Source of the DNA: Cellulophaga sp. L1A9
GTDB lineage: Bacteria > Bacteroidota > Bacteroidia > Flavobacteriales > Flavobacteriaceae
DNA length: 64,000 nucleotides
Reading direction: 5' to 3'
Assembly: GCF_009797025.1 (NCBI RefSeq)
Contig: NZ_CP047027.1
Coordinates: 1,736,001-1,800,000, forward strand
Below, in pieces: positions 2,102 through 20,696 of the stretch. A program made the position numbers and the translations under genes. The notes under the pieces were generated by a model. That model made no database searches and was not told the origin of the DNA. It saw only the letters and a program-made list of their open reading frames with translations. Position 1 is the stretch's first letter, and the number at the start of each line of letters is the position of its first letter.

Positions 2102-2160
2102 GATGCGAACGCATCGTAATTAGCCATGACAAGGTACGAAAAAATACGTATATATACGTA
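2102..2160 (-). promoter_or_regulatory. nasA promoter region with TACGTA-TATA-TACGTA palindrome
   Basis: A perfect 16-bp palindrome (TACGTA, 4 bp, TACGTA) occupies 2145-2160. Read on the minus strand it runs straight into a T-run (2139-2144) resembling the TAnnTTTG -7 box, with a second weak box TACCTTG just after. A further TACGTA followed by ATTACG lies upstream at 2246-2257. Between palindrome and start codon is a small inverted repeat GATGCG-AA-CGCATC (2102-2115). The same palindrome design recurs at other nitrate promoters of the window. Binding by the FNR-like regulator is inferred. Confidence 0.6.
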
Positions 2161-2257
2161 GTGTTGATTTGATAATAATCAGCCTAAGGTTTTGATATAT
2201 CAATAATTAACTGGGAATAAAATAGTCGCATCTATGCAAAATACCTACGTAATTACG

Positions 2258-3133
2258 CTAAGAAATAGTATTTCTATACGCCTTAGGAGACGTTCCTATA
2301 GATCGTTTAAAATACTTTATAAAATAGGAATCATCCTCAAAGCCTAAACGGAATGCCACTTCATTTATAGGTAAATTCGTGAATTTCAACAAACGTTTCG
2401 CTTCTAATAATACGCGTTCTTTTACAAGCTGTGAAGGTGCTTTATCGACAACGTTTTTAGTAATTGTGGTAAGGGTTTTAGAAGAAGTATTCAGTAAATT
2501 TGCATAGTCAATTATTGCCAATCCGCTTGTATAGTGGAGTTCAATAAGATCTTTAAATTTAAAAAACTGCCGCTCGTAATGGGTATTAATCTGTAATTTT
2601 CTACTCGTATCTGCATAATGTATCCGCTCTACAGAAATCAGGAGTGATTTTAGTAAGAAGCGTATCATATCTTCATGACCAAAACTTAGTTTATTAGGCA
2701 ATTCTTTTTCGATTAATTCAATATGATGTGCTGCTATTTTTGCAGTAGCATCGTCTAAAAGGTAACAGGGGTTTTGCTCGATATTGAAAATGTTATATTT
2801 TAAAAAAATATCAACATCAGAATGCCTAAAAAAGCTTTCATTAAAATGAATCAGCCAACCTTCTACCTCTAAATTAGCATCAAAAGAATGAATTTGGTCT
2901 TTATTCGTAAAAAGCACCATGTTTTTTTCGATAGCATAGTTGTTGAAATCTACTGTATGCGTACCTCCTTTATTAAAAAACCAAAGCAATTGGTAGTAGC
3001 TGTGCGAATGAGGTATCGCTGCTTTTTCTGGATTTTTTTTACGGTAACTTTTTAAATCGTGCAGCTGAAACTGCAACTTATCAGGATGCGCTTTATGTAG
3101 GTGATATTGCTCTATTTTATGAGAATCTTTCAC
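2258..3133 (-). CDS. AraC-family transcriptional regulator
   Basis: A 291-residue protein with an N-terminal cupin-like sensing half (histidine-rich PHSHSYYQLLWF near residue 42) and a C-terminal AraC double helix-turn-helix. The signature NEVAFRLGFEDDSYFIKYFKRSIGTSPKAYR lies in the last 40 residues. The start is GTG at 3133, overlapping the TAG stop of the amine oxidase gene by one base, so the two are probably translationally coupled. It is the last gene of a short operon with the amine oxidase and AhpD-like genes and most likely regulates it. The ligand is unknown. It lies next to nasA, but nothing ties it to nitrate. Confidence 0.88.
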   Translation of the reverse strand: MKDSHKIEQYHLHKAHPDKLQFQLHDLKSYRKKNPEKAAIPHSHSYYQLLWFFNKGGTHTVDFNNYAIEKNMVLFTNKDQIHSFDANLEVEGWLIHFNESFFRHSDVDIFLKYNIFNIEQNPCYLLDDATAKIAAHHIELIEKELPNKLSFGHEDMIRFLLKSLLISVERIHYADTSRKLQINTHYERQFFKFKDLIELHYTSGLAIIDYANLLNTSSKTLTTITKNVVDKAPSQLVKERVLLEAKRLLKFTNLPINEVAFRLGFEDDSYFIKYFKRSIGTSPKAYRNTIS

Positions 3134-4176
3134 TAATGTTTCAATTTTTCGGCAGCTAATTTTCCACTATAAATAGCACCGTCCATATAACCTCCATGCA
3201 AGGGTGATGTTTCTGCTCCAGAAAACAACAGTTTTCCATTCATATAAAAGTCGGCAAAAACAGGATTCCCATACGCCGGACTCATATAAATAGACTTAAT
3301 GGTTTCACAAGAAGTGTTTTTATCCTGCGACCAATCCTTTTCATTATAGGAGGTGTACTCCATAATTTCTTCGCCTAAATATTTAGTAAGATACGCAAGA
3401 ATTTTTGCTTGGCGTTCCTCAGGAGTCAAATCTCTTAGTGCTTCATTTACAAAGCCCATTAAGCCAAATTCAGTTTCATCATGATTGGTATGATCATACA
3501 GTTCTGTTACAGCACCCACTTGCCCTATAACAGTTCCTGATAAATTTCTAGCCTTCCAAAAAGGTTGTTTGAACTTTATACCAACCTTTATAGCATTACT
3601 CATCCAGGTATGCGTTTTTTCCATCACTTCAGTAACATTACTTGGTAATTCTGGTGAAAAATCTATCCGCGTTGTGATCCGTGGCGGAATGGTACTCACT
3701 ACTTTTTCTGCACTATACACCCCTTTATTGGTTACTACCTTTATGCTACCACCAAGATCTTCCATCGCTAGAACTGTGGTATCTGTATGTATTTGATTAG
3801 AGAAAGATGCTGCTAATTTTTTAATTACAGCAATGGACCCGCCTGCAATTCTATGTGCAGATGGTGCACTAGGATCATTTTGAAAATAATGCTCAGGAGC
3901 CATAGTACTATACACCAAAACACTCTGCCCTTTAGCATATTGAGAGAATTTTTCAATCTTCAATTCCCTCAACATACCAGCCACATGTGTATGATGATTT
4001 TGAAACCAAGTAGCTCCAAAATCAATCTGATTAGCTGTCAAAATTCTACCTCCAATTGTTGCTCTAGCATCTAAAATAACAACATCTGATTCGCCTGCTT
4101 TGTACAATTCATAAGCCGTAGTTAGTCCAGAAAGGCCTGCGCCTAATATTAAATATTTAGAGGTAGTTTGTATCAT
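3133..4176 (-). CDS. FAD-dependent amine oxidase family protein
   Basis: A 347-residue flavoprotein. The N-terminus has the dinucleotide-binding fold LILGAGLSGLTTAYELYKAG with the acidic residue in VVILDAR, then IGGRI. The C-terminus has the flavin-contacting segment LLFSGAETSPLHGGYMDGAIYSGKLAAE seen in monoamine oxidase relatives. It is about 100 residues shorter than typical monoamine oxidases. No signal peptide is visible. Its ATG overlaps the stop of the upstream AhpD-like gene by one base, and its own stop overlaps the AraC start, so the three form a tight transcription unit. The substrate cannot be told from sequence. Confidence 0.8.
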   Translation of the reverse strand: MIQTTSKYLILGAGLSGLTTAYELYKAGESDVVILDARATIGGRILTANQIDFGATWFQNHHTHVAGMLRELKIEKFSQYAKGQSVLVYSTMAPEHYFQNDPSAPSAHRIAGGSIAVIKKLAASFSNQIHTDTTVLAMEDLGGSIKVVTNKGVYSAEKVVSTIPPRITTRIDFSPELPSNVTEVMEKTHTWMSNAIKVGIKFKQPFWKARNLSGTVIGQVGAVTELYDHTNHDETEFGLMGFVNEALRDLTPEERQAKILAYLTKYLGEEIMEYTSYNEKDWSQDKNTSCETIKSIYMSPAYGNPVFADFYMNGKLLFSGAETSPLHGGYMDGAIYSGKLAAEKLKH

Positions 4177-4481
4177 TATTTATTCATTAAATGAGTTCCA
4201 TGAACCACTGCCGCTCCTGCTCTTAATGCCGCCGCGACGAAGGTTACTTCTGCTAATTCTTCTTGTGTAACACCCGCTTTAACGGCTTGCTCTTTATGTA
4301 TTTCTAAACAATAAGGGCACTGCGTTGTTAACGCCACAGCAATCGCAATTAATTCTTTGTATTTTTTAGGAATTACACCATCACTCAAAGCTTCTTTATC
4401 AAAAGCTTGAAATGCTTTCATTGCCGGACTCGCATTTTTTTCTAAAGCCCCCAAGTGCTTTAAATTATCCATTGTATACAT
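4176..4481 (-). CDS. carboxymuconolactone decarboxylase / AhpD-like protein
   Basis: A 101-residue all-helical protein with the AhpD signature CPYCLEIHKEQAVKAG (CxxC plus conserved His), the peroxidase or thiol redox centre of this family. The second half has VTFVAAALRAGAAVVHGTH, as in other single-domain CMD proteins. A second ATG at 4472 would remove three residues and is equally possible. It is probably a thiol-dependent peroxidase or redox partner for the adjacent oxidase. The amine oxidase could produce hydrogen peroxide, which would give this gene a protective role; that link is inference. Confidence 0.85.
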   Translation of the reverse strand: MYTMDNLKHLGALEKNASPAMKAFQAFDKEALSDGVIPKKYKELIAIAVALTTQCPYCLEIHKEQAVKAGVTQEELAEVTFVAAALRAGAAVVHGTHLMNK

Positions 4482-4502
4482 ATTACTTATATTTTATAAA
4501 GA

Positions 4503-4535
4503 TTAAAAAAAATAAGATAAGACACACCTCTTATC
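4503..4535 (-). terminator. rho-independent terminator after the SDR gene
   Basis: On the minus strand GATAAG pairs with CTTATC (4530-4535 with 4516-4521, 8-nt loop) and is followed by a T-rich tail with a run of eight T. It lies between the SDR gene and the AhpD-like gene, so part of the SDR transcript should stop here. Confidence 0.5.
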
Positions 4536-4555
4536 CTTTAATAAAAACTTGAGTT

Positions 4556-5305
4556 TTAGTTTCTCCCAGACATTACACCGCCATCAGTATCCCAAATGGC
4601 ACCAGTTACCCATGATGCTTTATCTGATAATAAGAAATGTATGGTTTCGGCTACATCTTCTGGCTGCCCTATTCTCCCAATTGGATGAAACGCATTAAAG
4701 CCTTTTAAAGCTTCGTGCGCTTTTTCTGCATCGCCAAAAACACTATCATACACCGGTGTTTCTACAAGAGCAGGAGAAACTGCATTGACACGAATTTTAT
4801 GATCTGCAAGCTCCATAGCCAAATGTTGTGTAAGAGAATGTAATCCTGCCTTTTGCATAGAATACGCAGAAGAAGGCGTTGCTTTTACTGCTTGTTTTGC
4901 CCACATTGAACCTACATTTACAATGGCACCACCACCTGTAGCTGCCATTTTCTTGGCTGCATTTTGTGTAATAAAAAAGAAACCACGATTTAAATCTTGG
5001 TAAGAATCATAATCTTCTACAGTATGATCTAAGAATGGTTTAGGTCCAAAAATCCCAGAAGCATTTACGAGATAGTCTAAATTTTCCCATCCATCAACCA
5101 TACTATTTAGCTCACTTACCGCACTAAGGTTTGTAATATCAACCTTATGACAATGTAAATTCTCCGAAACCTCATTTTTAAAAGCGTTTAGCTTAGTATC
5201 ATTGGTTCCAACAATATGCACTTCTACACCTTCCTTTAATAATCTTTGGGCTGTAGCTTTTCCTATTCCACTACTTCCGCCTACAATTAATGCTGTCTTT
5301 TTCAT
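4556..5305 (-). CDS. short-chain dehydrogenase/reductase (SDR) family oxidoreductase
   Basis: A classical SDR of about 249 residues. It has the TGxxxGxG-type cofactor loop as [15 protein letters not shown] at the N-terminus, the NASG motif (LVNASGIFG), and the YxxxK catalytic pair in [10 protein letters not shown] with an upstream serine. The C-terminus [16 protein letters not shown] is typical. The open frame extends to 5365, but the extra 20 residues are not SDR-like, so I place the start at the ATG at 5305 ([10 protein letters not shown]). It heads a divergent pair with the DUF5995-like gene. The substrate is unknown. Confidence 0.86.
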
Positions 5306-5421
5306 TTGTTTATTTTTTATATTAAAACTTAGAGACAAAATTATGCAGCATATAACGCCTAGCATGGTAGGTACTAGAGAGAAAATGGTATTTTTAGGAA
5401 GTAAAACTTTTTCCTTATTAA

Positions 5422-6177
5422 ATGAACGAGCCTAAAACCATCAAAGAAGTACTGGTTGTACTTGACACCATCATTGAAGAATGCATTGCTAAAAATAGCC
5501 GATTGGGCTTATTTGCTTATTTATACCGAAGAACCACTGCCGAAATTTTAAAAGAAGTAGAACGTGGTGGTTTTGAAAACAATGTACAATTAGAACAGAT
5601 GGATGTTGCTTTTGCCAATTTGTACATAGACGCCTACCAAGAGCATGCTAAAGGGAATAAAGTGAGTGCCTCTTGGCTGTTTTCTTTTGAGAATGCAACA
5701 GAAGAACTAACTATTCTGCAACATATTATGTTAGGGATTAATGCTCATATAAATCTAGATTTGGGCATTGCAACGGCTGCGACTATGAAAGGAAAAGAGC
5801 TTACCCTTATTGAGAAAGATTTTAATACTGTAAATGATATTCTTTTTAATATTACCAATGAAATGCAAGACCGGTTAAGTCGCGTTTCACCATTACTTTT
5901 CCTATTAGATCTCTTGGGAAAAAATACGGATGAGAAGGTGATTGATTTTAGTATGCGTAAGGCAAGACAACAATCTTGGAACAGCACTAATCTTTTATGG
6001 GCTCTTGATGAAAGCCAAAAACCTGAGGCTATCGCTAAAATAGATCGATTAGTACTAGAATTGGGGAAATTCATAAAAGACCCAAAATCTAAATTAATTG
6101 GCTATGTATTAAAAGGCATAAGATCTTTTGAAGAAAAAGATGTTGGCCTAATTATTACCAAACTGCAGAAAGACTAG
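5422..6177 (+). CDS. DUF5995-like cytoplasmic protein
   Basis: A 251-residue soluble protein without signal peptide or membrane segment. I recognise the general pattern of the DUF5995 family ([13 protein letters not shown] near residue 30, [12 protein letters not shown] near 70, and a helix with [13 protein letters not shown] near 120). It is predicted mostly helical. Function is unknown. It is divergent from the SDR gene and converges on the response regulator with only three bases between stop codons, so it is probably a single-gene transcript. Confidence 0.6.
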
Positions 6178-6180
6178 CAA

Positions 6181-6852
6181 TTAGACCAAATTAAATTCTT
6201 GTGCTTTTTTAGACAGGTCGATAAGGTTCTTAACATCCATCTTGCGCATTAAATTAAACCGGTGCGTTTCTACCGTACGCTTACTATTCTCCAATTTTTC
6301 TGAAATTTGTTTATTGGTCAATCCCGATAAAATAAGCTCTAAAATCTGAAGCTCTTTACTGGTCAAATCAAACGGATTCTCATTTGATTTTGCTGGTTTT
6401 AGTTTTTCGGAAATAGGCTTATTTCCACTTAAAAGATTATTGACCAAGACATTAGAAATATCACCACTAAAATACTTACCTCCTTGCTGTACTGTACGTA
6501 TTGCTTTTATAAATTCGGTCTTACCAGTATCTTTAAGTAAATAGCCATTGGCTCCAGCATTCACAGATTTTAGTATATATTCCTCCGAATCATGCATGGA
6601 TAGAATAATGGTTTTTGTAGCAGTCCCTTGTTTATTTAGGATTTCAACAGCATCAATACCATTCATCACAGGCATTCGAATATCAATAATCAGCAGATCT
6701 GGTTTTTTTTCATTCACCATATCAATAGCTTCTTTTCCATTAGAAACCTCAGCAACTACTACTAAATCTTCTTCCTCTTCAAGTAAAGCACGAATACCAT
6801 CTCTAACTAAAGAATGATCATCTGCTAAAACTATTCGTATCGTCTGGGCCAT
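6181..6852 (-). CDS. NarL/FixJ-type response regulator
   Basis: A 223-residue regulator with a receiver domain (acidic pair D11-D12, phosphoacceptor D57 in LLIIDIRMP, conserved K in GYLLKDTGK) and a C-terminal LuxR-type helix-turn-helix (LTSKELQILELILSGLTNKQISEKL, then KRTVETHRFNLMRKM). The class matches the HisKA_3-type NarX-like kinase at 21323-23173, which has no regulator next to it, so I infer that they pair. The promoter region carries a TACGTA element like the nitrate genes, which supports that link. Confidence 0.92.
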   Translation of the reverse strand: MAQTIRIVLADDHSLVRDGIRALLEEEEDLVVVAEVSNGKEAIDMVNEKKPDLLIIDIRMPVMNGIDAVEILNKQGTATKTIILSMHDSEEYILKSVNAGANGYLLKDTGKTEFIKAIRTVQQGGKYFSGDISNVLVNNLLSGNKPISEKLKPAKSNENPFDLTSKELQILELILSGLTNKQISEKLENSKRTVETHRFNLMRKMDVKNLIDLSKKAQEFNLV

Positions 6853-6873
6853 AATTAAAAATGATATTTATTA

Positions 6874-6908
6874 CAAATATAAATTAAAAATACGTAGTTG
6901 AATACTTA
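6874..6908 (-). promoter_or_regulatory. promoter of the response regulator gene with TACGTA half-site
   Basis: On the minus strand a TATATTTG box (6874-6881) fits the Bacteroidota -7 consensus TAnnTTTG and lies about 20 bases before the ATG. Ten bases further upstream is TACGTA (6891-6896), preceded by TAAGTA at a six-base gap instead of the four-base gap of the full palindromes. I read it as a degenerate member of the same site family. Confidence 0.4.
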
Positions 6909-6991
6909 GAAAAATTTGAATAGCGTCAACGCATAAAAAAGCCTACAATCCTAAAATATGACCTAGGGTTTTTAATTGCTTATTTTAAAAA

Positions 6992-8413
6992 TTAAATAGC
7001 AGGACCACTATCTACTACAGCTTCTATTACCGCTTCAATAGTGTTTGGTATATTTTCAAAAAAGTCATAACCCGTAAGTATTTCTACGGAATCTACTGAG
7101 GTAGTAAATTGCGTCCAATCACTGCTAATACCTTGATCATTAGGCACATTAATAGCAATCATTCTAGTAGAAGATGCTACTCTGTTGATATCATCCGAAC
7201 CATTAGGCAAAATTAACACTACTTTCCAAAAGGTATCGGGTACCGTAATGTTCGTATTATATATTAAATCTGCAGCCCCATTAGATCCTGTTCCACCAAC
7301 ACCGGCAACGCCAGCAATAACATGGATTTCATTTCCCTCACTAGCCAAATCTCTTAAATAATCTTCAAAATTTGCCCAAATTCCTTGGTTATTATTAGGA
7401 GATTGAGGGGCTATATTGGTCATATAATAGGTGTTCTCATTCGAATCTTCATCACCATTTCTATCTGCCGAAGGGCACAAATGCCCTCTATTAAATCCTG
7501 TATTGGTATAGTTTGATGTGGTAGCTCTAAAAAAACTAGTAGGAAGCGAAACATCTTGTTTAAAACAATTACACCTTTCTGTATCACCTGTCCAAGCGGC
7601 ACTTAAATGCCAGCTCACCCAATTTGCTGTTCCTTTAGAGTTATTATAAGACAGGACATAATCTGTATTATCTAAATAGTAATTATCTGATAACACACCT
7701 GCATCAGAAGGATTTCCGAAAGTAATGTTACTATCTTTTGAAGCAATGCCAGCGTCTACAGAAACGTCTGGTATGCTCATTTCAATATTATCGATATTTA
7801 CGCGATTAGCTCCTCCTGATAATTTTAAAATACCATAGCGTGCACTCCCTGGTTCATTTAATTCATAAACAACTGTGTTTAAAATTGTAGAATTGGTGGT
7901 CACCACATCGCCTACCGTTAACCATGATACACCACTATCATAAGATAGCACTAGTTGCCAGGTAGAAGTGCCATCAGCACCATATGCGGCATGCCGAATA
8001 CTTAAAGATTCTACCCCGTTAGTCATATCAAAATTCATAATCAAGTGTCCTGAATTTCTTATTCTAACCGATTTAGAACCATATTTTCTATCATTGGTCA
8101 ATGCACCAATCAATGCATCAGAAAGATTCCAACTTCCTGAATTTTCAATGATAACATCATTAGCTGCGTAACTAGATTTTGAGGCCACCTCAAAACCTTC
8201 TATAAAACCATCTATCCCTTTTGCGGTGTGACGGTGTTTAAAATAACCTTCATTATCAAAAAAATAAGTGGGAACATTTTTTGAGCCCGAAATCAAAAGT
8301 TCTGATGATAACTCAATTTCTTCATAATAACTCACATCATCATTAGTACAACTACTAAAAATGAATACTGAAAATATTAAAAGTGATACACGATGAATTA
8401 CATAAGTTTTCAT
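6992..8413 (-). CDS. exported DNA/RNA non-specific endonuclease lipoprotein (NUC1 family)
   Basis: A 473-residue lipoprotein: signal peptide with lipobox FSSC at about residue 22. Residues about 60-215 form a beta-rich module (EGFEVASKS, SGSWNLSDALIG, GSKSVRIRNSGHLIMNFDM) like those attached to exported enzymes of Bacteroidota. Residues about 235-455 are the NUC1 nuclease with the metal/catalytic motif NRGHLCPSADR (DRGH variant with N in place of D) and NIAPQSPNNNQGIWANFED. It would degrade DNA or RNA outside the cell. It lies between the response regulator and the nitrate porin, transcribed the same way, but appears to have its own promoter. Confidence 0.85.
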   Translation of the reverse strand: MKTYVIHRVSLLIFSVFIFSSCTNDDVSYYEEIELSSELLISGSKNVPTYFFDNEGYFKHRHTAKGIDGFIEGFEVASKSSYAANDVIIENSGSWNLSDALIGALTNDRKYGSKSVRIRNSGHLIMNFDMTNGVESLSIRHAAYGADGTSTWQLVLSYDSGVSWLTVGDVVTTNSTILNTVVYELNEPGSARYGILKLSGGANRVNIDNIEMSIPDVSVDAGIASKDSNITFGNPSDAGVLSDNYYLDNTDYVLSYNNSKGTANWVSWHLSAAWTGDTERCNCFKQDVSLPTSFFRATTSNYTNTGFNRGHLCPSADRNGDEDSNENTYYMTNIAPQSPNNNQGIWANFEDYLRDLASEGNEIHVIAGVAGVGGTGSNGAADLIYNTNITVPDTFWKVVLILPNGSDDINRVASSTRMIAINVPNDQGISSDWTQFTTSVDSVEILTGYDFFENIPNTIEAVIEAVVDSGPAI

Positions 8414-8441
8414 TTACTTGACTATTTAATAATTAAAAAAT

Positions 8442-8471
8442 CAAATATACAGTTTGTAAGATTATTCTTAC
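8442..8471 (-). promoter_or_regulatory. putative promoter of the nuclease gene with inverted repeat
   Basis: TATATTTG on the minus strand (8442-8449) fits the TAnnTTTG -7 box, 29 bases before the ATG. Just upstream is the inverted repeat GTAAG-N6-CTTAC (8456-8471), which may be an operator. It is not the TACGTA motif of the other nitrate promoters. Confidence 0.35.
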
Positions 8472-8483
8472 TTATATTTAAAA

Positions 8484-8524
8484 CAAAAAAACTACTATAA
8501 TGAAATATTCTTCATCATAGTAGT
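8484..8524 (-). terminator. terminator of the nrtABCD-porin operon
   Basis: On the minus strand ACTACTAT pairs with ATAGTAGT (8 bp), extended after one mismatch by four more pairs around an 8-nt loop, and is followed by seven T. It lies 23 bases after the porin stop codon. Confidence 0.75.
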
Positions 8525-8547
8525 GTATAGAACTGTTGTATTTAACC

Positions 8548-9834: not shown

Positions 9835-9876
9835 AATTTGAAATTTGATTGTGTTATTTAAAATTTTCAACTTGTT

Positions 9877-10704
9877 TTAATGTTCTAAAAAATCTATTAA
9901 GTGTTTTCTGTATTTGTAGTAATCTTGATGTTCTAAGACAGATTTTCTTGTTCTTGGTCTTTCAAAATCGATGTTGAGCACATCGCCAATCTTGGCTTTG
10001 GGTCCACTGGTCATCATCACCACACGATCCGCAAGAAAAATGGCCTCATCTACATCATGGGTAATCATTACTGCGGTAATTTTTTCTTTATTCCATATTT
10101 CTATCAGAATATCTTGAAGCTCACCCCTTGTTAAAGAGTCTAACATTCCAAAAGGCTCATCTAATAACAATACCTTAGGCTTAATAGCAAAGGCTCTTGC
10201 AATACCCACCCGCTGTTGCATTCCTTGAGAAAGTTCTGTTGCCTTTTTATGGAAAGCCCCATCTAATCCTACTTTGTGCAAATAATATTTAGCAATATCT
10301 GTACGTTGTTTTTTTGTGGCGTGTGGAAATACTTGATTAACTCCTAAAAGCACATTCTGTAATGCTGTCATCCAAGGCATTAAACTTGGTGATTGAAAAA
10401 TAACACCTCGATCTGGACCCGGACCTTTTACAGGATTTCCTAATACGGAAATATTTCCTCCAGATATAGGGTTGAGACCGGCAATCATAGAAAGCATGGT
10501 TGTTTTACCACAACCAGAATGCCCAATAATGGTAACAAACTCTTCTTTCATGATTTGTAAATTCAAATCTTCAAGAACTACATAATCTCCCTTAGGCGTA
10601 GGATACACCTTTTTTAGGTCTTTAAGATCTAACATTACCTTTGAAGGGTAGTAAATCCCATTTTCTAAATAAGAGTCTTTGGTATCTATGGGTGCTGAAT
10701 TCAT
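9877..10704 (-). CDS. nrtD: nitrate ABC transporter ATP-binding protein (NrtD-like)
   Basis: A 275-residue ATPase with all catalytic motifs: Walker [11 protein letters not shown]-loop FQSPSLMPW, signature [14 protein letters not shown], Walker [10 protein letters not shown] and switch histidine in MITHDVDEA. The [25 protein letters not shown] tail is typical of the nitrate/taurine importer class. It is last of the four nrt genes, 16 bases after the second ATPase gene. It should pair with that ATPase to drive import of nitrate through the NrtB-like permease. Confidence 0.88.
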
Positions 10705-10720
10705 GATTTTTATGATAAAA

Positions 10721-11560
10721 TTAGTTTACAAAACTTTTTGGAGCTACATCTGGCAGCACGTATTCTACTTCTGAAACAGATTTTCGGTCTTCACCAATTG
10801 CCATTAAATAAGCGATAATCTCATTTCTTGTTTTCATAAAATTGACATTATCATTTAATTCTGTTTTATCCCTAGGGCGGGCGATTTCTATTTTAAACTC
10901 TGGGCCTAAGGTTGCCCTAGGCCCTGGTTTTAATGGAATAATTCGGTCTGCCATATAGATCCCTTCATCAACATCATTTGTAATTAATAATGCTGTGCGC
11001 TTATCTTGATTCCAAATATTCAAAATCTCATCTTGTAAATTCCCTCTTGTCAAAGCATCAAGTGCCCCTAAAGGTTCGTCCATAATAATCATCTCCGGCT
11101 TCATTGCTAAAGCTCTTGCCACTGCTACCCGTTGACGCATACCGCCAGATAGCTCTTTTGGCCTTTTATTAATCGCGTGTGATAAGCCAACCATTTCTAC
11201 ATAGTTAGCTACTCTATCTTTTATTTCTTTTTTACTTTCTTTTGGAAAAGCTTCTTTGACCGCCATGGATACATTCTGAGCAACCGTTAACCATGGAAGT
11301 AGGGAATAATTTTGAAAAATAACTCCGCGTTCATGGCTTGTACCTACCACAGGTTCTCCCTTAAACAAAATCTCTCCACTTGTAGGTTTTATGAGTCCGT
11401 TTATAAGATTCACCAAGGTTGTTTTTCCGCTCCCAGTAAACCCTACAATAGCTACAAATTCTCCTTCTTCAATTTTTAAATTGATATTAGAAAGCACGGC
11501 AGTACTATCTTTTCCATGACCGTATGTTTTGCAAACATTTTTTAGTTCTAAATATGCCAT
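10721..11560 (-). CDS. nrtC: nitrate ABC transporter ATP-binding protein (NrtC-like, stand-alone)
   Basis: A 279-residue ATPase: Walker [11 protein letters not shown]-loop FQNYSLLPW, signature [14 protein letters not shown], Walker [13 protein letters not shown]. The switch loop reads LITNDVDEG, with asparagine where ABC ATPases normally have histidine, so this half-site may be less active than its partner. The segment [15 protein letters not shown] resembles cyanobacterial NrtC, but the C-terminal NrtA-like domain of those proteins is absent. It lies between nrtB (19-base gap) and nrtD (16-base gap). Confidence 0.86.
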
Positions 11561-11579
11561 AAGACTCGTATTAGAAAAA

Positions 11580-12680
11580 TTATATTCCTTCGTTTTTATT
11601 GAATGATACCATTTGCTGTACCATAAGCATTAGCCTATCTAAAAGGAATCCTATAATCCCGATAACAAACATGGCAACGATAATTTTAGCGTTAGAATCA
11701 TTGGCGCCATTTTGAAACTCTTCCCAAACAAATAATCCTAAACCTGGACTTTGTGCCAACAACTCTATTGCAATTAGAACCATCCACGCCACAGACAATG
11801 TAATTCTCAACCCTGTAAAAATCAAAGGCAATGATGAGGGTAGAATTACTTTAAATATTTTCTGAAAGGTGCCTAATTTTAGCACTTTAGCCACATTGAT
11901 ATAATCTTTATCTACTGAGGAAACTCCCATTGCGGTATTCACCAATGTAGCCCACATAGAACACAAGCCAACACTAATAAACGAGATGACAAAAGCATTA
12001 TCGGAGTTTGCACCGATGTACAAGGTTTTTACAATCATAAAAACCAACAAATACCATACTACTGGTGATACTGGTTTAAATATTTGTATAAACCAATTGA
12101 ATGCACTTCGTAAAGACGGACTCAAACCAATCACAACTCCAATAGGTACTGCAATGATTAGTGCTAAGAGAAACCCTGCAAAAACAGTTTTAATACTCGT
12201 TAAAACAGTATCTACAAAGGATGCACGCCCCGTATAAATGATAGCATCTTTACCTTGTGCTACCAATTTTTCATTGGTAGCTGCCATTTTAGTAGCAAAA
12301 GCTTCTTTCTTCGCTTTTATAAGTTTATGATCTGCTATTAAAGACTGAAAAGAAGCCCAAACTTGTGTAGGAGAAGGCAGAGTATTGGGCTGGCAACTAC
12401 TATCCCCAGATGCTATACACGCCTTTTCTGCATCTGCCGCTTCCTGACCTTGTTCTGATAAAGCTTTTTCAATTTTATAGGTAGCTTCTTTGTTGTATAA
12501 TGCCTTTGATCCAAGGTGCCATAAGGCCAGGAACAAAAGAATAGATACCAGTGTAATTCCTGTTTTTTTCAAAGACTTTACTACAGCATCTTTTTCAAAT
12601 TTCGCTTTGAACAGTGTAGCTATTGGCTTTAAAAATGTAATGCCTTGGCTTTCTTTTTCCAATGTGATTTCTTGTTTCAT
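11580..12680 (-). CDS. nrtB: nitrate ABC transporter permease (NrtB-like)
   Basis: A 366-residue permease of the BPD_transp_1 type. The first membrane helix (about 37-56) is followed by a hydrophilic insertion of about 90 residues containing two cysteines (CIASGDSSC) and many Lys/Glu/Ala. The usual permease core then begins near residue 165, with the coupling loop segment containing VAKVLKLGTFQKIFKVILPSSLPLIFTG. Family members are usually about 260-300 residues, so the insertion is unusual. It probably lies on the periplasmic side, next to the lipid-anchored binding protein; that is inferred. The gene is 31 bases after nrtA. Confidence 0.85.
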   Translation of the reverse strand: MKQEITLEKESQGITFLKPIATLFKAKFEKDAVVKSLKKTGITLVSILLFLALWHLGSKALYNKEATYKIEKALSEQGQEAADAEKACIASGDSSCQPNTLPSPTQVWASFQSLIADHKLIKAKKEAFATKMAATNEKLVAQGKDAIIYTGRASFVDTVLTSIKTVFAGFLLALIIAVPIGVVIGLSPSLRSAFNWFIQIFKPVSPVVWYLLVFMIVKTLYIGANSDNAFVISFISVGLCSMWATLVNTAMGVSSVDKDYINVAKVLKLGTFQKIFKVILPSSLPLIFTGLRITLSVAWMVLIAIELLAQSPGLGLFVWEEFQNGANDSNAKIIVAMFVIGIIGFLLDRLMLMVQQMVSFNKNEGI

Positions 12681-12711
12681 CTTTTGTTCTTTTCCTTGGT
12701 TATTGTACTAC

Positions 12712-14085
12712 TTAATCTTTGTTACCGATTGCAAAACTGTTGATGTATCCTATAGGATCTTTTGCATCATAGGTAGTGCCATCAATAAAATCTGCAGTTG
12801 CTGGCTTATACCCATCTGTTGTAGGCACATCTGTTGCAGGAATTTTACCTTCAGCTACTAATAAGTCGGCTGCTTTTTTCCATACATCTGGTCTATAAAT
12901 ATCTTTAATGGTCTCTTCATACCAAGCTGCTGGTTTTGCATCAGGAATTTGCCCCCATCTGCGCATTTGAGTTAAAAACCAAATTCCGTCAGAATAAAAA
13001 GGATATGTTGCGTTATACTTGTAAAACACATTAAAGTCTGGCATAGAACGCTTATCACCTTTTTCAAACTCAAAAGTACCTGTCATAGAATTTGCCAAGA
13101 CTTCTTCTGGCGCACCTACGTATTGTGACATAGATAATATTTTTACAGCTTCTGGTCTATTTGCAGGATCATCCAACCATTTTCCTGCTCTAATAAGTGC
13201 TTTTGTAACGGCTACTGCTGTGTTTGGGTTATCCTCAATAAACTTTTCTGTCATCACGAATACCTTTTCTGGATTGTTTTTCCAGATATCATAATTGGTT
13301 ACCACTGGCACTCCAATTCCTTTGAAAACTGCTTGCTGGTTCCATGGCTCTCCCACACAGTACCCATAAATAGTACCTGATTCTAGTGTTGCTGGCATTT
13401 GTGGCGGAGGCGTAACAGAAAGTAAAACTTCGGCATCTATTTGTCCTTGCACATTTTCTGCGGTATACATTCCTGGGTGAATACCCGCTGCTGCTAACCA
13501 ATAGCGTATTTCATAATTATGTGTAGATACAGGAAAAACCATTCCCATTTTAAAAGGTTTACCGCTGTTTTTGTATTCCGTAACTACTGGTTTTAATGCA
13601 TCGGCTTTTATTGGGTGTACAGGATTTCCATCTTCTCCAACAGGTACATTTGGTTTCATTTTAGACCAAACATCATTTGAAACGGTAATTGCATTTCCAT
13701 TTAAATCCATAGAAAAAGGAGTTACCAATTTAGCTTGCCTACCAAAACCAGCTCCCGCAGCAATAGGCTGACCTGCTAGCATATGTGAACCATCTAATTG
13801 TCCGTCAATAACACGGTCTAAAACATTTTTCCAGTTAGATTGTGCTTCCACAGAAACGTATAGTCCTTCTTCCTCAAAGAACCCTTTTTCTTTAGCAATT
13901 GCCAAAGGTGCCATATCTGTTAATTTGATAAAGCCAAAGGTTAGTTGGGGTTTTTCTATTTCTAAAGAATTCGCTTTTACTTCTTCTGAAGACGTTTCTT
14001 TTGCTTTCTTTTCTTTTCCTCCGCAAGCCGAAAGAAGCATAGCTGCCATAAAAGAAAAAGCCACTTTTTTGATTACATGTTTCAT
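12712..14085 (-). CDS. nrtA: nitrate-binding lipoprotein (NrtA/CmpA family)
   Basis: A 457-residue periplasmic binding protein anchored by lipid: lipobox LSAC with the cysteine at about residue 21. The mature part starts with [27 protein letters not shown], the typical opening of NrtA-type proteins. It continues with [28 protein letters not shown] and [20 protein letters not shown]. It captures nitrate (possibly nitrite) and delivers it to NrtB. It is the first gene of the nrtA-B-C-D-porin operon; a TACGTA-type site lies just before it. Confidence 0.88.
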
Positions 14086-14106
14086 AGTTGATTATTTATA
14101 GTTTTC

Positions 14107-14147
14107 TACGTACTAATACTTAATAATGACAAATATATAAGTACTTA
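14107..14147 (-). promoter_or_regulatory. nrtA promoter region with degenerate TACGTA palindromes
   Basis: On the minus strand a TATATTTG -7 box (14130-14137) lies 44-52 bases before the nrtA ATG. Downstream of it is TAAGTA-TTAG-TACGTA (14107-14122), the N4 palindrome with one mismatch. Just upstream of the box is TAAGTA-CTTA (about 14138-14147). The arrangement differs from the other promoters because the best site falls after the predicted transcription start. Confidence 0.45.
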
Positions 14148-14249
14148 AACGGAAATTTCATGAATTAGCGCAGCACCAAACCTCTTTTTATCCCATAACA
14201 AAACCTGCTATAAAACATATTTTCAGCGTAACAGACTAGCATAAAGAGC

Positions 14250-14297
14250 ATTAAAACAAAACACCAATTACGTAGCTGTACGTAATTGGTGTTTTGT
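14250..14297 (-). terminator. terminator of the MFS-fnr unit, with a TACGTA palindrome at its tip
   Basis: A perfect 19-bp inverted repeat (14256-14274 with 14279-14297) with the loop GCTG. On the minus strand it is followed by TTTTAATG, so it can terminate the transcript of the FNR-like gene, which ends at 14347. The top of the stem is TACGTA-GCTG-TACGTA, the same half-sites and spacing as the nitrate operators. It may therefore be both a terminator and a regulator binding site upstream of nrtA. Confidence 0.65.
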
Positions 14298-14346
14298 GCT
14301 CTTACCACTATGAACTGATTAAAAATAAACCAGAAATAATTTGCGA

Positions 14347-15105
14347 CTATAAATCCAGATAGAAGTTATGCTCCGAGATTTCTTTTTTGAGTAGGTCTAC
14401 ATTAGTAATGCCTACTTTTTTACCTTTTGTATGGATGAGATTTTCTTTTTTTAAGCTTGAAAATATACGAATGACTTGTTCTTCTGTTGTGCCTGCATAA
14501 TCTGCATACTCTCTTCTACTTAAGGCAAGATTTAAAAATCCGTTGTAATCTTTAAATTTTCTGTGGATATATAATAAGGTATCTACCACGCGTTCCCTTA
14601 CCGTCATTTGTGAAATAGATTTGACTTTTGCTTCACTTCTATTCAATTCATCGGCATAAAAAAGCATTAAATCATAGGCAAAACTAGCATTACTCTTTAG
14701 GGCTTTTTGTAATGTTTCTTTAGAGAAATAACAAAGCTCCGTATGTTCTAGCGCTATAGCCCCTATGGAATAATATTCTTCAGTACCAAAACCCCGGTGC
14801 CCAATAATTTCTCCTTCTTTTGCAAAACGAACAATTTGTTCCTTACCGTGTATTCCTGTCCTATATACCTTAACCTTACCTTTTAATATAAAGAAGAGCC
14901 CATTGACGGGTGCTCCCTCAATAATGAACTGTTGCCCTTTTTTACAAGTAATTTCTGTTTTTATAGTAGAAAATAGCGCTACTTGCTCTGAAGAAGTATT
15001 TCTATTGATCAGACAATTAGTGTTGAAACAACTTTCGCAAGCAGTATTCAAAGAATTGTATCTTTTTGAATTTACATTCCGTGTATGTGCTGTTAGCGTA
15101 TTCAA
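14347..15105 (-). CDS. FNR-like Crp-family transcriptional regulator
   Basis: A 252-residue regulator. The N-terminus has cysteines C23, C26 and C31 (CESCFNTNC), and another lies at C125 (TELCYF). This resembles the four [4Fe-4S] ligands of E. coli FNR (C20, C23, C29, C122), so oxygen or NO sensing is possible but not shown. A cNMP-type beta-roll covers about 45-130 and the winged helix about 165-235, with recognition helix TTEEQVIRIF keeping the E...R pair of FNR. The start codon appears to be TTG at 15105; no ATG is available near the N-terminus. It follows the MFS gene by 14 bases and is likely co-transcribed. I propose that it binds the TACGTA-N4-TACGTA sites of this island. Confidence 0.85.
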   Translation of the reverse strand: MNTLTAHTRNVNSKRYNSLNTACESCFNTNCLINRNTSSEQVALFSTIKTEITCKKGQQFIIEGAPVNGLFFILKGKVKVYRTGIHGKEQIVRFAKEGEIIGHRGFGTEEYYSIGAIALEHTELCYFSKETLQKALKSNASFAYDLMLFYADELNRSEAKVKSISQMTVRERVVDTLLYIHRKFKDYNGFLNLALSRREYADYAGTTEEQVIRIFSSLKKENLIHTKGKKVGITNVDLLKKEISEHNFYLDL

Positions 15106-15119
15106 TATTTTTTACCCTA

Positions 15120-16526
15120 TTATTTATCTGCTAATTGAATATTTAATTTTTCTGAAGGAACAGTCTCCTCTGAAGTGGCAAATTTTATCGCTAATGACAA
15201 TAAAGACGCAACTAAAATGCAACCCCCAATCACAAAGTATCCTGCCGAAACTGCAGAAGCGGAAGCTAATGTTTGCGCTGCTTTTACAGCTTCTTCGCCC
15301 AGATTACTGTTTGCTGAAATAGCGCTACTTTCTGCAATAGCAGATTTTGACTTTAATAATAAGGCTGCAAAAAATGCTCCTACATTCCCCCCTGCACCAA
15401 CAATCCCCGAAATAGAACCTATTGCTTTTTTATTAATAAATGGAACCACAGAAAATGTTGCTCCTTCTGCCATTTGCACCGTTAAGCTAAAAGCTATCAA
15501 AAAAATCATCCCTACAGCGAGACTTATTGTCATAGAAAAGAAAGACAGCATTATTCCTTCGGCAGCTAAAATAACTGCTAAGAAAATTACACGACCTCGC
15601 AAGCCTTTACTATTTCCAAATTTATCTCCAAAATAACCTCCAAGAGTACGGGCAAAAATATTCATTAAAGCAAAAGACAATACTAAATTTCCTGCGAACG
15701 ATCTTTCTAAACCAAATCTATTTTGAAGATAGTCATCCATAGTCCCATACACGGTTAATTCAATTCCGAAACAAGCAGCATAGACTAAAAATAATATCCA
15801 AACTCTATAATCTTTTAATACACTAGCAAAAGATGCCTCATCTTTTTTCAAAATAGGCATTTCACCTTTTTCTTTCAATTCCGCAAAATTTCCGTCGGGC
15901 GTATCCTTTGTAAAGGAGTAATAAACAAAACCCATTGCAAGGCACAAAAGACCTGCTATAACCATAGAGTAACGCCAAGCAATTTCATCTGCCACACCAA
16001 AACCAACAACTGCCGCAGCAATTAAGGGCATCCCTAAACGGTTAGCTCCACCTCCTAAATTTCCCCAACCCGCAGAAGTTGCATTTGCAGTACCTACAAT
16101 ATTAGGAGCAAACATAATAGATGTATGAAATTGTGTAATTACAAAAGATGCTCCTATAAAACCTATAAAAAACCTACATACCAAAAACTGCATAGGGGTT
16201 TGCACAAAACCCAGTAATATTACCGGAATTGCACCAAACACCAATAAATAGGTATAACACAACCTTGGTCCGTATTTATCACATAATTTACCAACAGCCA
16301 AACGTGCAAACACCGTTCCTGAAACGGCTAATATAATTGAGTTCCATTTTTGAGACGGACTCAAGCCTAAATCTTTAACTACATCTGGCATAAAAGGAAC
16401 GATCCCAAACCAAGCAAAAAAGCAAAGAAAGAATGCTAATGACGTAATCCAAAATGTCTTCATTTGAATACTCTTAAAATCACGGAAGTTTAGTTTCGTT
16501 GCTTTATTTGATGTCGTATTATTCAT
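15120..16526 (-). CDS. NarK/NasA-type MFS nitrate/nitrite transporter
   Basis: A 468-residue membrane protein with about 12 helices. The nitrate-nitrite porter signature appears as ATSAGWGNLGGGANRLGMPLI (near 145-165), and a related glycine-rich stretch GSISGIVGAGGNVGAFFAAL lies in the second half. The major-facilitator loop GKLCDKYGPR follows helix 2. It imports nitrate or exchanges nitrate for nitrite across the inner membrane. With the ABC system the island has two nitrate uptake routes, perhaps of different affinity. The promoter upstream carries three tandem TACGTA-type half-sites. Confidence 0.88.
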   Translation of the reverse strand: MNNTTSNKATKLNFRDFKSIQMKTFWITSLAFFLCFFAWFGIVPFMPDVVKDLGLSPSQKWNSIILAVSGTVFARLAVGKLCDKYGPRLCYTYLLVFGAIPVILLGFVQTPMQFLVCRFFIGFIGASFVITQFHTSIMFAPNIVGTANATSAGWGNLGGGANRLGMPLIAAAVVGFGVADEIAWRYSMVIAGLLCLAMGFVYYSFTKDTPDGNFAELKEKGEMPILKKDEASFASVLKDYRVWILFLVYAACFGIELTVYGTMDDYLQNRFGLERSFAGNLVLSFALMNIFARTLGGYFGDKFGNSKGLRGRVIFLAVILAAEGIMLSFFSMTISLAVGMIFLIAFSLTVQMAEGATFSVVPFINKKAIGSISGIVGAGGNVGAFFAALLLKSKSAIAESSAISANSNLGEEAVKAAQTLASASAVSAGYFVIGGCILVASLLSLAIKFATSEETVPSEKLNIQLADK

Positions 16527-16569
16527 GTCTTTATTATTTTGAAAGTTATACTAGATTCCAACTACTTCT

Positions 16570-16601
16570 CAAAAATAAGTATAATTACGTATTAATACGT
16601 A
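16570..16601 (-). promoter_or_regulatory. MFS-fnr promoter with three TACGTA-type half-sites and a -7 box
   Basis: Read on the minus strand: TACGTA-TTAA-TACGTA (16601-16586), then ATTA, then TACTTA (16581-16576), which runs directly into TTTTTG to complete the -7 box TATTTTTG (16570-16577). Half-sites repeat every 10 bp, so two overlapping palindromes are possible. The proximal part differs from the nirB promoter site by one base only. The ATG is 44 bases downstream of the box. Because the regulator gene is in this unit, autoregulation is likely. Confidence 0.65.
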
Positions 16602-16763
16602 TATACTTAATTAAAAAAGGTTCGGTATACGTATTTTTATTAAAGTGTCAAGATTTTCATAGAAATTCTATCAAATAGAAAAAAAAGAGAAGCGTATATT
16701 AAAAATTTCATATTTAGAGAAGTATTTCAAATACCTATAAGTACTTAAAAATGAGATAATTCA

Positions 16764-16819
16764 CCGATATATTAATCAGCATATGGATCAAGGCAGAACC
16801 AAAATGCTGATTATATCGG
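16764..16819. other. long imperfect hairpin in the 309-base gap between SUMT and the MFS gene
   Basis: CCGATAT-(ATT)-AATCAGCAT (16764-16782) pairs with ATGCTGATT-ATATCGG (16804-16819): 16 base pairs with a 3-nt bulge and a 21-nt loop, 17 bases after the SUMT stop. It has no T-run on the minus strand, so it is not a standard terminator; it may protect or process the SUMT transcript. The rest of the gap 16527-16835 holds the MFS promoter, a lone TACGTA at 16628-16633 and AT-rich sequence without a gene. Confidence 0.4.
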
Positions 16820-16835
16820 CTATAAACTGAATGAA

Positions 16836-17609
16836 TTAAAAATTAGAATGAAGTACACGCTGGAGTTCTTCTTCAAAAAAAGAAGGATGCTCTGCCACAA
16901 CATCTCCAATAACAATAATCCCTGGTAATGAAGTATTTATCTGATGCAAGCGCGCCTCCCTATTATATAAGGTACCTGTAATACAAACCTCTTTATCGAA
17001 TGTACCGTTTTGAATGATTGCAAAAGGAGTGATGCCTTTTCTATATTTTGCTATTTCTTCAGCGATTTCATTAAACTTACGTACTCCCATCAATATCACT
17101 AAAGTTGCAGATGATTGTGCTGCCAATTTAAGATCTTGAGAAAAAGAGCCATCTTTTTTTGTGGCCGTCATCACCCAAAAACTACTGCTAATTCCTCTGC
17201 GAGTTACAGGAATTCCTTGACTAGCAGGAACCGAAATAGCACTAGTCAACCCTGGAACTACGGTTACCGGTATTCCAAAAGATGCTACATATTCTATTTC
17301 TTCACTTGCTCTACCAAATACAAAAGGATCTCCCCCTTTTAAACGAACCACATGTCCGTATTGGTAAGCATTTTCTACAATCAATCTATTAATATCATCT
17401 TGTGAAAAAGAATGTTCTCCACAGCGCTTACCTACGTATATTTTTGGAATATGCTCATCAATTTCATCAAGCAATTCTTGACTTATCAAAGCATCGTATA
17501 AAATTACTGATGCCTCTTGCAATACCTTGAAACCTCTTCTCGTGATAAGGTCGCTGCTACCAGGGCCTGCACCCACTAAACTAACTTTTGGATTATTGTT
17601 TGACATCAT
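16836..17609 (-). CDS. cobA: uroporphyrinogen-III C-methyltransferase (SUMT)
   Basis: A 257-residue single-domain SUMT that methylates uroporphyrinogen III twice with SAM to give precorrin-2, the route to the siroheme of NirB. Motifs: VSLVGAGPGSSDLITRRG at the N-terminus, VRLKGGDPFVFGRASEE (about 89-105), and VPGLTSAISVPASQGIPVTRRG (about 117-140). There is no fused dehydrogenase/ferrochelatase domain, so siroheme synthesis needs another gene elsewhere. Two adjacent ATG codons (17609, 17606) could start it. It is divergent from nirB and shares a regulatory gap with it. Confidence 0.92.
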   Translation of the reverse strand: MMSNNNPKVSLVGAGPGSSDLITRRGFKVLQEASVILYDALISQELLDEIDEHIPKIYVGKRCGEHSFSQDDINRLIVENAYQYGHVVRLKGGDPFVFGRASEEIEYVASFGIPVTVVPGLTSAISVPASQGIPVTRRGISSSFWVMTATKKDGSFSQDLKLAAQSSATLVILMGVRKFNEIAEEIAKYRKGITPFAIIQNGTFDKEVCITGTLYNREARLHQINTSLPGIIVIGDVVAEHPSFFEEELQRVLHSNF

Positions 17610-17649
17610 AATTTCTATTTTTTAAGGTGTAGAATTATTAATATGATAA

Positions 17650-17661
17650 CAAACCTACGTA
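17650..17661 (-). promoter_or_regulatory. SUMT promoter: -7 box fused to TACGTA
   Basis: On the minus strand TAGGTTTG (17650-17657) fits the TAnnTTTG box, and its first two bases are the last two of TACGTA (17656-17661). The partner half-site four bases upstream is degenerate (TAAAAA). The overlap of half-site and -7 box is the same as at nirB. Confidence 0.45.
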
Positions 17662-17688
17662 TTTATTTTTATAAAATTACCTAAAATA

Positions 17689-17710
17689 TACGTAATTATA
17701 CGTATTTTTG
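17689..17710 (+). promoter_or_regulatory. nirB promoter with TACGTA-ATTA-TACGTA palindrome joined to the -7 box
   Basis: TACGTA (17689-17694), ATTA, TACGTA (17699-17704) followed directly by TTTTTG, so the last TA of the palindrome begins the -7 box TATTTTTG (17703-17710). The ATG of nirB is 27 bases after the box and is itself the end of another TACGTA (17732-17737). A bound protein would cover the region just upstream of the transcription start, a position more usual for repression than for class II activation. Confidence 0.65.
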
Positions 17711-20672: not shown

Positions 20673-20696
20673 CTTTGGAGCAAACCCTGAAATATT

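Follow-up and report, generated by a model that had tools for sequence, protein, structure and literature searches.

The nitrate island of Cellulophaga sp. L1A9 carries a palindrome, TACGTA-N4-TACGTA, in the gaps before several of its genes, and the question raised by this locus is which protein recognises it and with what effect on the promoters. The window analysed here was a stretch of 64,000 nucleotides of contig NZ_CP047027.1, in which the following genes were relevant:

6181–6852 (−): NarL-type response regulator (RR; receiver and LuxR/GerE HTH), the proposed binder
12712–14085 (−): nrtA-like nitrate-binding lipoprotein (NMT1_2), by domain match
14347–15105 (−): FNR-like CRP-family protein (CxxCx4C), a probable operator target
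15120–16526 (−): narK-type nitrate/nitrite transporter, by profile match to TIGR00886
16836–17609 (−): uroporphyrinogen-III C-methyltransferase (SUMT; siroheme)
17737–20250 (+): nirB, nitrite reductase large subunit
20292–21287 (+): nirD and DUF4202 genes, separating nirB from the kinase gene
21323–23173 (+): nitrate-sensor histidine kinase (PilJ sensor, PAS, HisKA_3, HATPase), N-box with R61

The best model for the transporter, TIGR00886, scored 296.7 bits, slightly below its cut-off of 311.7, and fnr begins 14 bases behind narK. The nitrate role of the lipoprotein (12712–14085) is suggested by its place. SUMT shares its gap with nirB. The sites and adjoining elements were as follows:

2135–2140: third half-site TACGAA near the nasA operator, 10 bp away
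2139–2146: −7-like box TATTTTTT at nasA
2145–2160 (−): putative nasA operator TACGTA-TATA-TACGTA, by sequence match, conserved in relatives
6891–6908 (−): TACGTA-N6-TACTTA upstream of the RR gene, with a spacing unlike that of the operator
14107–14122 (−): putative nrtA operator TAAGTATTAGTACGTA (minus strand), present in 20/21 nrtA promoters of relatives
14130–14137: −7-like box TATATTTG, with the nrtA operator just downstream of it
14256–14297 (no strand): 19-bp perfect inverted repeat with a 4-nt loop, terminator-like, downstream of fnr
16570–16601 (−): narK promoter with three half-sites at 10-bp steps (16576, 16586, 16596)
16570–16577: −7 box TATTTTTG, fused to the narK half-site array
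17650–17661 (−): single TACGTA half-site and −7-like box TAGGTTTG, oriented toward the divergent SUMT gene
17689–17704 (+): putative nirB operator TACGTAATTATACGTA (region 17689–17710)
17703–17710 (+): −7 box TATTTTTG, fused to the nirB operator

A sequence-only reading of this DNA had described exact copies of the palindrome at 2145, 14269, 16586 and 17689, all in gaps, as marks of a local nitrate regulon. All four were confirmed, and a scan of the complete 5.07-Mb genome, proposed in the same reading, returned these four matches exclusively, each in a gap of the nitrate island. The reversed control pattern had one match in the whole genome. With up to three mismatches allowed, 41 matches were counted versus 24.2 (sd 4.55) in shuffled sequences, and none of 100 shuffles reached 41. 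The degenerate form TAMGTAWNNWTACKTA had five matches genome-wide, the four island gaps and one within an unrelated ORF (L005). One-mismatch copies were found at 2135, 14107 and 16576, the latter two as described earlier. The pairs 2135/2145 and 16576/16586 are not separate sites but arrays of three half-sites at 10-bp steps; the positions previously given for the two copies at the transporter gene were right, but they make up one array. Two other supposed near copies proved different, since the one at 17656 has three mismatches and is really a single TACGTA half-site beside a TAnnTTTG box toward SUMT, and the one at 6891–6908 has a spacing of 6 instead of 4.

The relatives, whose scanning had also been suggested, were represented by 80 related nirB loci with 150 kb of gaps and 1.56 Mb of coding sequence. 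In this sample the site generalised to TAMGTA-N4-TACKTA, with 219 copies in the gaps versus 9 in coding sequence. TACGTA-N4-TACGTA itself occurred 66 times in gaps, and none of 23 other palindromes with the same composition occurred there even once. The site was present before nirB in 76 of 79 cases, before narK in 46/49 and before nrtA in 20/21, with lower counts for nasA (30/55) and for the RR gene (33/70, N4 site). No site was found in three of the 79 nirB promoters (L080, L085, L094) and in one of 20 further ones (L142). Half-site spacings clustered at N4, N14–17 and N24–27, with none at N10–11 and N21–22, and the variable letters showed two-fold symmetry. An outer TAC...GTA holds for C-type half-sites alone (53% per side), the A-type being TAA...TTA. 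The exact pattern was present in 122 of 249 family genomes with many GC-centred copies, and the AT-centred form (128/249) was used instead. The island is also kept, through orthologs, in three genomes from outside the family, two of them with perfect sites and one with near copies; two RR matches outside the family (L237, L238) differ in their helix, lack nirB and showed no site in the 20 kb fetched, and were not counted as orthologs. Genome-wide exclusivity and conservation before nitrate genes strongly support the proposal that the palindrome marks a local nitrate regulon.

The copy at 14269 had been placed before nrtA. The copy is exact, but positions 14269–14284 form the inner part of the 19-bp inverted repeat at 14256–14297, and the conserved nrtA site is the one at 14107. 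As folded RNA the repeat had an energy of −31.8 kcal/mol (z −7.3), and it has a T-rich tail directly behind the fnr stop; the terminator scan did not list this hairpin. Because it sits in the hairpin, the copy is doubtful as a promoter site. A role is still conceivable, as the corresponding interval of L057 also contains an exact copy.

As the binder, the sequence-only reading had named the FNR-like protein (14347–15105), arguing from the geometry of the FNR site (TTGAT-N4-ATCAA, as given in part of PMC1802743). The NarL-type regulator and the nitrate-sensor kinase of the island had been left out as candidates. The geometry does not discriminate, as 16 bp is also the length of the 7-2-7 arrangement of NarL sites, and the consensus TAMGTA-N4-TACKTA holds no TTGAT-N4-ATCAA-like half-site. 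An fnr ortholog was absent in 17 of 50 genomes searched (best match ≤36% identity versus 60–75% for orthologs), and all of these keep the site before nirB (17/17), narK (12/12) and nasA (16/16), so the sites do not depend on the ortholog. The recognition helix of the protein, TTEEQVIR, varies very little whether a genome has C-type or A-type half-sites, hardly changing where the site letter changes. The fetched loci contained 29 copies of fnr: 13 came straight after narK, and of the remaining 16, 13 had a site within 300 bases upstream; fnr is mostly behind the operator and is therefore probably a member and target of the regulon. Its location within the island, the retention of E and R in its recognition helix, with their presumed role, and the 16-bp length, which is compatible with a CRP-type 5-6-5 reading, speak for the FNR-like protein, but given the missing orthologs, the constant helix and the position of fnr behind the operator it was rejected, and its binding is considered very improbable.

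The site might instead be recognised by a different CRP-family paralog of wider distribution, or by an unlinked regulator. A count by eye gave such a paralog (30–36% identity) in 47 of 50 genomes searched, but no linkage to the island was seen, sites are kept in two of the three paralog-less genomes (L079, L118; best match ≤27%), and genomes without RR have on average only background site counts, which makes this alternative improbable. The AraC regulator at 2258–3133, beside nasA, was dismissed as a candidate, with no match at E ≤ 1e-15 in 80 + 20 nirB loci.

The preferred reading, highly probable from sequence comparison, is that TAMGTA-N4-TACKTA is the operator of a Bacteroidota nitrate two-component system, bound by the NarL-type regulator paired with the PilJ kinase. 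RR orthologs and nirB were found in the same 60 of 249 family genomes. The mean site count was 4.97 in these 60 (control 1.12) and 0.66 in the other 189 (control 0.60). Fourteen of the 189 had at least three site matches, and no nitrate gene was found within 3 kb in the two that were opened (L044, L045); one RR-bearing genome (G030) had fewer copies than the control (1 vs 2). In 15 of 15 genomes tested whose fetched stretch held no full RR, exactly one RR ortholog was found elsewhere, in some just outside the stretch. In 38 of 80 loci, the RR gene followed the kinase gene in the same orientation at no more than 1.5 kb. Presence and absence were discarded as a means of separating RR from the rest of the island: alone they cannot single it out, because RR and nirB co-occur perfectly and never part.

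The best PDB match of RR was NarL (1a04), with a receiver and a GerE/LuxR HTH domain. It scored 147.6 bits with the NCBIfam NarL model, below the cut-off of 250, and 192.5 bits with MctR (cut-off 300); as it falls below the NarL cut-off and MctR scores higher, it is regarded as a homologue and not as NarL. The recognition helix is nearly constant among relatives. One helix residue (T or V), aligned with V189, a contact residue of NarL, co-varied with the half-site letter C/A (156:46 vs 59:155), which is just suggestive because it reflects one split on the RR tree. In the kinase, the PilJ domain was detected with E 1.3e-13, G58 and R61 were each present in 91 of 93 aligned rows, and the sole PDB sequence match was McpN (6gcv, E 0.002). 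The kinase has the G-x-x-R of the Bacteroidetes nitrate-sensing histidine kinase (NSHK) class, no HAMP or GAF domain (Pfam, E ≤ 0.001), PAS before DHp and nitrate genes nearby. Two genomes (G180, G228) retain RR and the sites although the kinase next to RR has no nitrate domain.

At 72 of 99 nirB sites and 36 of 59 narK sites, the site ends in the same TA with which the −7 box TAnnTTTG begins. For nrtA, 13 of 33 sites have the box upstream, in most RR promoters the site is upstream of the box, and some sites stand at other distances than the fused phase. A TTG at −33 spacing is rare in fused nirB promoters, with 8 matches in 72 (offsets −12 to −5). The fixed phase to TAnnTTTG could indicate that the motif is part of an alternative sigma factor promoter and not an operator, but the two-fold symmetry of the variable letters, the helical half-site arrays and the sites at other distances leave this with hardly any credibility. 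It is possible, though rather doubtful, that the regulator binds but represses, the operator over −26 to −11 excluding RNA polymerase until nitrate relieves the block. The shared TA at nirB and narK and the upstream box at nrtA would suit repression; the rarity of TTG at −33 would be unexpected if the promoter works unaided, and the site upstream of the box in most RR promoters also speaks against it.

Returning to the two-component system, we infer that the membrane kinase (21323–23173) would sense nitrate via its PilJ/NarX-type domain and phosphorylate the NarL-type regulator (6181–6852), which would bind next to the sigma −7 box, at the 7-2-7-like site of 16 bp, in dimeric or helically phased oligomeric form. 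Its predicted targets are nasA, nrtA, narK-fnr and nirB, so that the FNR-like protein would be a regulated gene of the nitrate regulon, and it would most likely activate promoters lacking a −33 element. An activator would not usually be expected to bind between −26 and −11, and the RR promoter of the island has N6 instead of N4; both were counted against this explanation. More tentatively, a Bacteroidota-specific arrangement may be envisaged, in which NarL-type dimers in helically phased arrays activate between −26 and −11, replacing the −33 element and sharing the TA of TAnnTTTG, with the operator reused for glnA, citrate synthase and porin genes where the kinase has lost its nitrate domain. 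Such a mode resembles that of MerR-type spacer-binding activators but would be built from NarL-type dimers in arrays.

To our knowledge, few regulator–operator pairs have been described in Bacteroidota. The analysis provides a flavobacterial nitrate-assimilation regulon with a specific consensus, named candidates for regulator and sensor, and a promoter geometry that is unusual; in the family, 60 of 249 sampled genomes have both regulator and nirB, and three genomes from other families have the island. Nitrate control in flavobacteria thereby becomes directly testable, and the attribution to FNR is corrected. No published report of the operator was found in a literature search with partial coverage of journals.

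Among known systems, NarX-NarL/NarQ-NarP of Enterobacteria share with the island the G-x-x-R nitrate sensor domain, the HisKA_3 kinase, the NarL-type regulator and a 16-bp inverted site of 7-2-7-like length and symmetry, with outer TAC...GTA in the C-type half-sites of the island. In contrast, no HAMP or GAF was found in the island kinase, which has PAS instead, the inner half-site is GTAT and not CCCT, and the island adjoins assimilatory genes, with the site fused to the −7 box and helical half-site arrays. The engineered NarL 7-2-7 site TACCCCTAAAGGGGTA (as given in part of PMC4549865) has the same length and outer TAC...GTA; length and symmetry fit the island site, the inner letters differ, and the outer TAC...GTA is found in C-type half-sites only. 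FNR is matched by the CxxCx4C motif of the island protein, which is however dispensable for the site. NreBC of staphylococci is likewise a two-component system that controls nir and nar genes in response to nitrate, but is described, in the portion of PMC8139620 available, with a GC-rich palindrome and an Fe-S cluster kinase. The nitrate chemoreceptor McpN (PMC6381276, in part) has the same PilJ N-box and nitrate-binding arginine, but is not a kinase; the G-x-x-R nitrate motif appears in the available text of both this source and PMC8199190. Shared in architecture and nitrate-gene neighbourhood are the Bacteroidetes narHK/narRR kinases (sensor, TM, PAS, DHp, CA) of the latter, in whose available portion no DNA target is named. 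The kinase class is already published, and a proposed operator and regulon for it are given here.

The scan of the Cellulophaga sp. L1A9 genome (one contig, 5,072,468 bases) for TACGTA-N4-TACGTA revealed four exact copies, all of them in gaps of the nitrate island, with a single match for the reversed control. The sequence-only reading, which had proposed such a scan, had placed all four correctly. When up to two mismatches were allowed, the genome was not enriched relative to the reversed control (176 vs 252), so near-perfect copies alone carry the signal. One-mismatch copies beyond the island comprised six inside open frames (loci L005-L007 and L012-L014), two in gaps (L008 and L015) and eight copies of a single repeated sequence, TACGGAAAAGTACGTA (L016-L023). 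The latter were located inside 18 kb (contig coordinates G000:C1:4693994-4712083), apparently in a repeated gene array. The regulatory genes of the island considered here are:

6181-6852, minus strand, NarL-type response regulator (RR)
14347-15105, minus strand, FNR-like protein of the CRP family (fnr)
21323-23173, plus strand, histidine kinase with a PilJ domain

The exact copy at 14269 was found inside a 19-bp perfect inverted repeat (14256-14297) with a T-rich tail behind fnr, for which a double role as terminator and site is possible. The equivalent interval of a related locus (L057) contained an exact copy without the long stem.

To follow the site in relatives, nirB was used as the anchor, and the best 80 loci, mostly from named Flavobacteriaceae, were taken with up to 10 kb per side. 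The site at nirB was mostly located 38-52 bases ahead of the start codon, and its half-sites recurred as TACGTA or TAAGTA/TACTTA, which gave the consensus TAMGTA-N4-TACKTA. This pattern was present in 219 copies in 149,876 gap bases (gaps being the stretches outside ORFs of 100 or more codons) vs nine in 1,558,523 coding bases. The site recurred before nirB (76/79), narK (46/49) and nrtA (20/21). It was also detected at 32 of 33 SUMT promoters, nearly all in the gap that SUMT shares with nirB, and at 30/55 nasA, 33/70 RR and 1/15 fnr promoters. No site was found in these loci upstream of the kinase (0/79), porin (0/32), nirD (0/75) or DUF4202 (0/79) genes. In 20 additional nirB loci, the site was present in 19, leaving 4 of 99 nirB promoters without it (L080, L085, L094 and L142). 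The DUF4202 gene itself (20697-21287 in the window) was present in all 80 nirB loci.

The N4 tandem of TACGTA occurred 66 times in gaps, and those of other palindromes of equal composition (24 compared in all) not once. The spacings of half-site pairs clustered at N4 (214, with gaps cut into segments), N14-17 and N24-27, and no pairs at N10, N11, N21 or N22 were observed in the gap segments of the relatives' loci, a pattern of helical phasing on one face. Much of the N27 peak (56) came from SUMT and nirB elements that occur as pairs.

The FNR-like protein had been proposed as the binder of the palindrome. When 50 of the 80 genomes were searched in full, 33 proved to have an ortholog (60-75% identity) and 17 to have none, the best match there having at most 36% identity. 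These 17 genomes kept the site at nirB (17/17), narK (12/12), nasA (16/16) and SUMT (15/15), as well as at nrtA (4/5) and RR (2/17), and its retention at every nirB argues strongly against FNR as the binder. The fnr gene would mostly be a target of the operator and perhaps a second regulatory tier, because 13 of 29 fnr copies (>50% identity) in the fetched loci came immediately after narK in the same orientation (14 bases behind it in the window), and for 13 of the remaining 16 a site was present no more than 300 bases upstream, in some cases in a gap shared with nirB or nasA. No site within that distance was found for the copies in L142 and L239 and for one of two in L145. A single-domain globin gene with its own site adjoined fnr in two loci (L195:4979-5445 and L223:6887-7370), which suggests a regulon arm for nitric-oxide or nitrite stress.

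We infer from sequence that RR would bind the operator, as we do its phosphorylation and the sign of control. Its best solved structure match was NarL (E 2.1e-32), in line with its NarL type, and the window kinase combined HisKA_3 with a PilJ sensor. In 38/80 loci RR was encoded downstream of the kinase, in the same orientation and no more than 1.5 kb away, and in 20/80 the distance was within 400 bases. With cut-offs set by the analyst (nirB E<=1e-200, RR E<=1e-60), nirB and the RR ortholog were present in the identical 60 of 249 family genomes and never parted company. The AT-centred pattern, used for genome counts since the exact one takes in many GC-centred copies, averaged 4.97 copies vs 1.12 for the reversed control in these 60 genomes and 0.66 vs 0.60 in the other 189, of which 14 had at least three copies. 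In G203, a genome of the same genus, neither nirB nor RR was matched at these cut-offs, and the AT-centred pattern was absent. All 15 tested genomes without a full RR in the fetched stretch had exactly one RR match (E<=1e-45), in some cases only just beyond that stretch. The recognition helix S-x-RT-x-E-x-HRF-x-x-M-x-K was nearly constant among relatives. The RR tree (71 rows) was divided into two clades with mostly ETH or mostly EVH helices, corresponding to mostly C-type and mostly A-type half-sites, a co-variation that amounts to one phylogenetic split.

A -7 box, TAnnTTTG, began at site position 14 in 72/99 nirB and 36/59 narK sites, so the final TA of the site is common to both elements. 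Of the 78 nirB sites in the first 80 loci, 55 had the box fused to the end nearer the gene and two to the end farther from it. The usual promoter distance for a TTG element is -33, and TTG at this distance was rare in the 72 fused promoters (eight matches over offsets -12 to -5). The box was mostly 6-10 bases past the site at RR promoters, upstream of it in 13/33 nrtA sites, at position 47 in 15/36 SUMT sites and fused in only 8/39 nasA sites. According to the F. psychrophilum transcriptome account in PMC9723704, TAnnTTTG is located at -12 to -5, and the operator would therefore cover about -26 to -11.

The survey of wider sites covered six genomes picked for many copies or oddity and regions fetched from others. 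Beyond the nirB stretch, sites were located upstream of the globin beside fnr, moeA, a second narK-like transporter and a lysR-type HTH protein. Further ones, from G180, G228 or G213, preceded glutamine synthetase, citrate synthase, a porin and a succinate dehydrogenase subunit. These targets, named from one example each against Pfam (the transporter excepted) and otherwise by first-residue similarity, were found in one to three genomes each, in part with divergent neighbours, and have weaker support than the core targets. The copies in G024 were largely repeated GC-centred sequences. In G228 (L200) and G180 (L201), the kinase beside RR had no PilJ nitrate domain and retained PAS and kinase domains; in these genomes sites stood before glutamine synthetase, citrate synthase and a porin. 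DUF4202 accompanied RR and the kinase in both loci, there apart from nirB.

A class-wide draw of 395 genomes gave RR matches (E<=1e-55) in nine, of which four belong to the family. Of the five from outside it, L237 and L238 differed in the helix and showed neither nirB nor a site in the 20 kb fetched. The island was present in the other three (L234-L236, GC 0.44-0.61). L234 carried perfect sites, one of them at nirB, and in L235 perfect sites flanked RR on both sides, nirB having a near copy only. The perfect site was absent from L236 (61% GC), where several TACGTA half-sites were located ahead of nirB and one pair at N5 was fused to TATTTTTG.

The N-box residues G58 and R61 of the kinase were each kept in 91/93 aligned rows. 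Its sole PDB sequence match was McpN (6gcv, E 0.002), in which R61 is described as hydrogen-bonding nitrate (PMC6381276); the window kinase has AY vs ML in the N-box pattern given there, and most relatives keep ML. This Bacteroidetes kinase class without HAMP or GAF, its genes labelled narHK and narRR, is described in PMC8199190, where the passages considered here name no operator. NarL sites are inverted heptamers two bases apart. The engineered site in PMC4549865 is TACCCCTAAAGGGGTA; TACCCCTAAAGGGGTA and TACGTATTAATACGTA are both 16 bp long and have identical outer letters.
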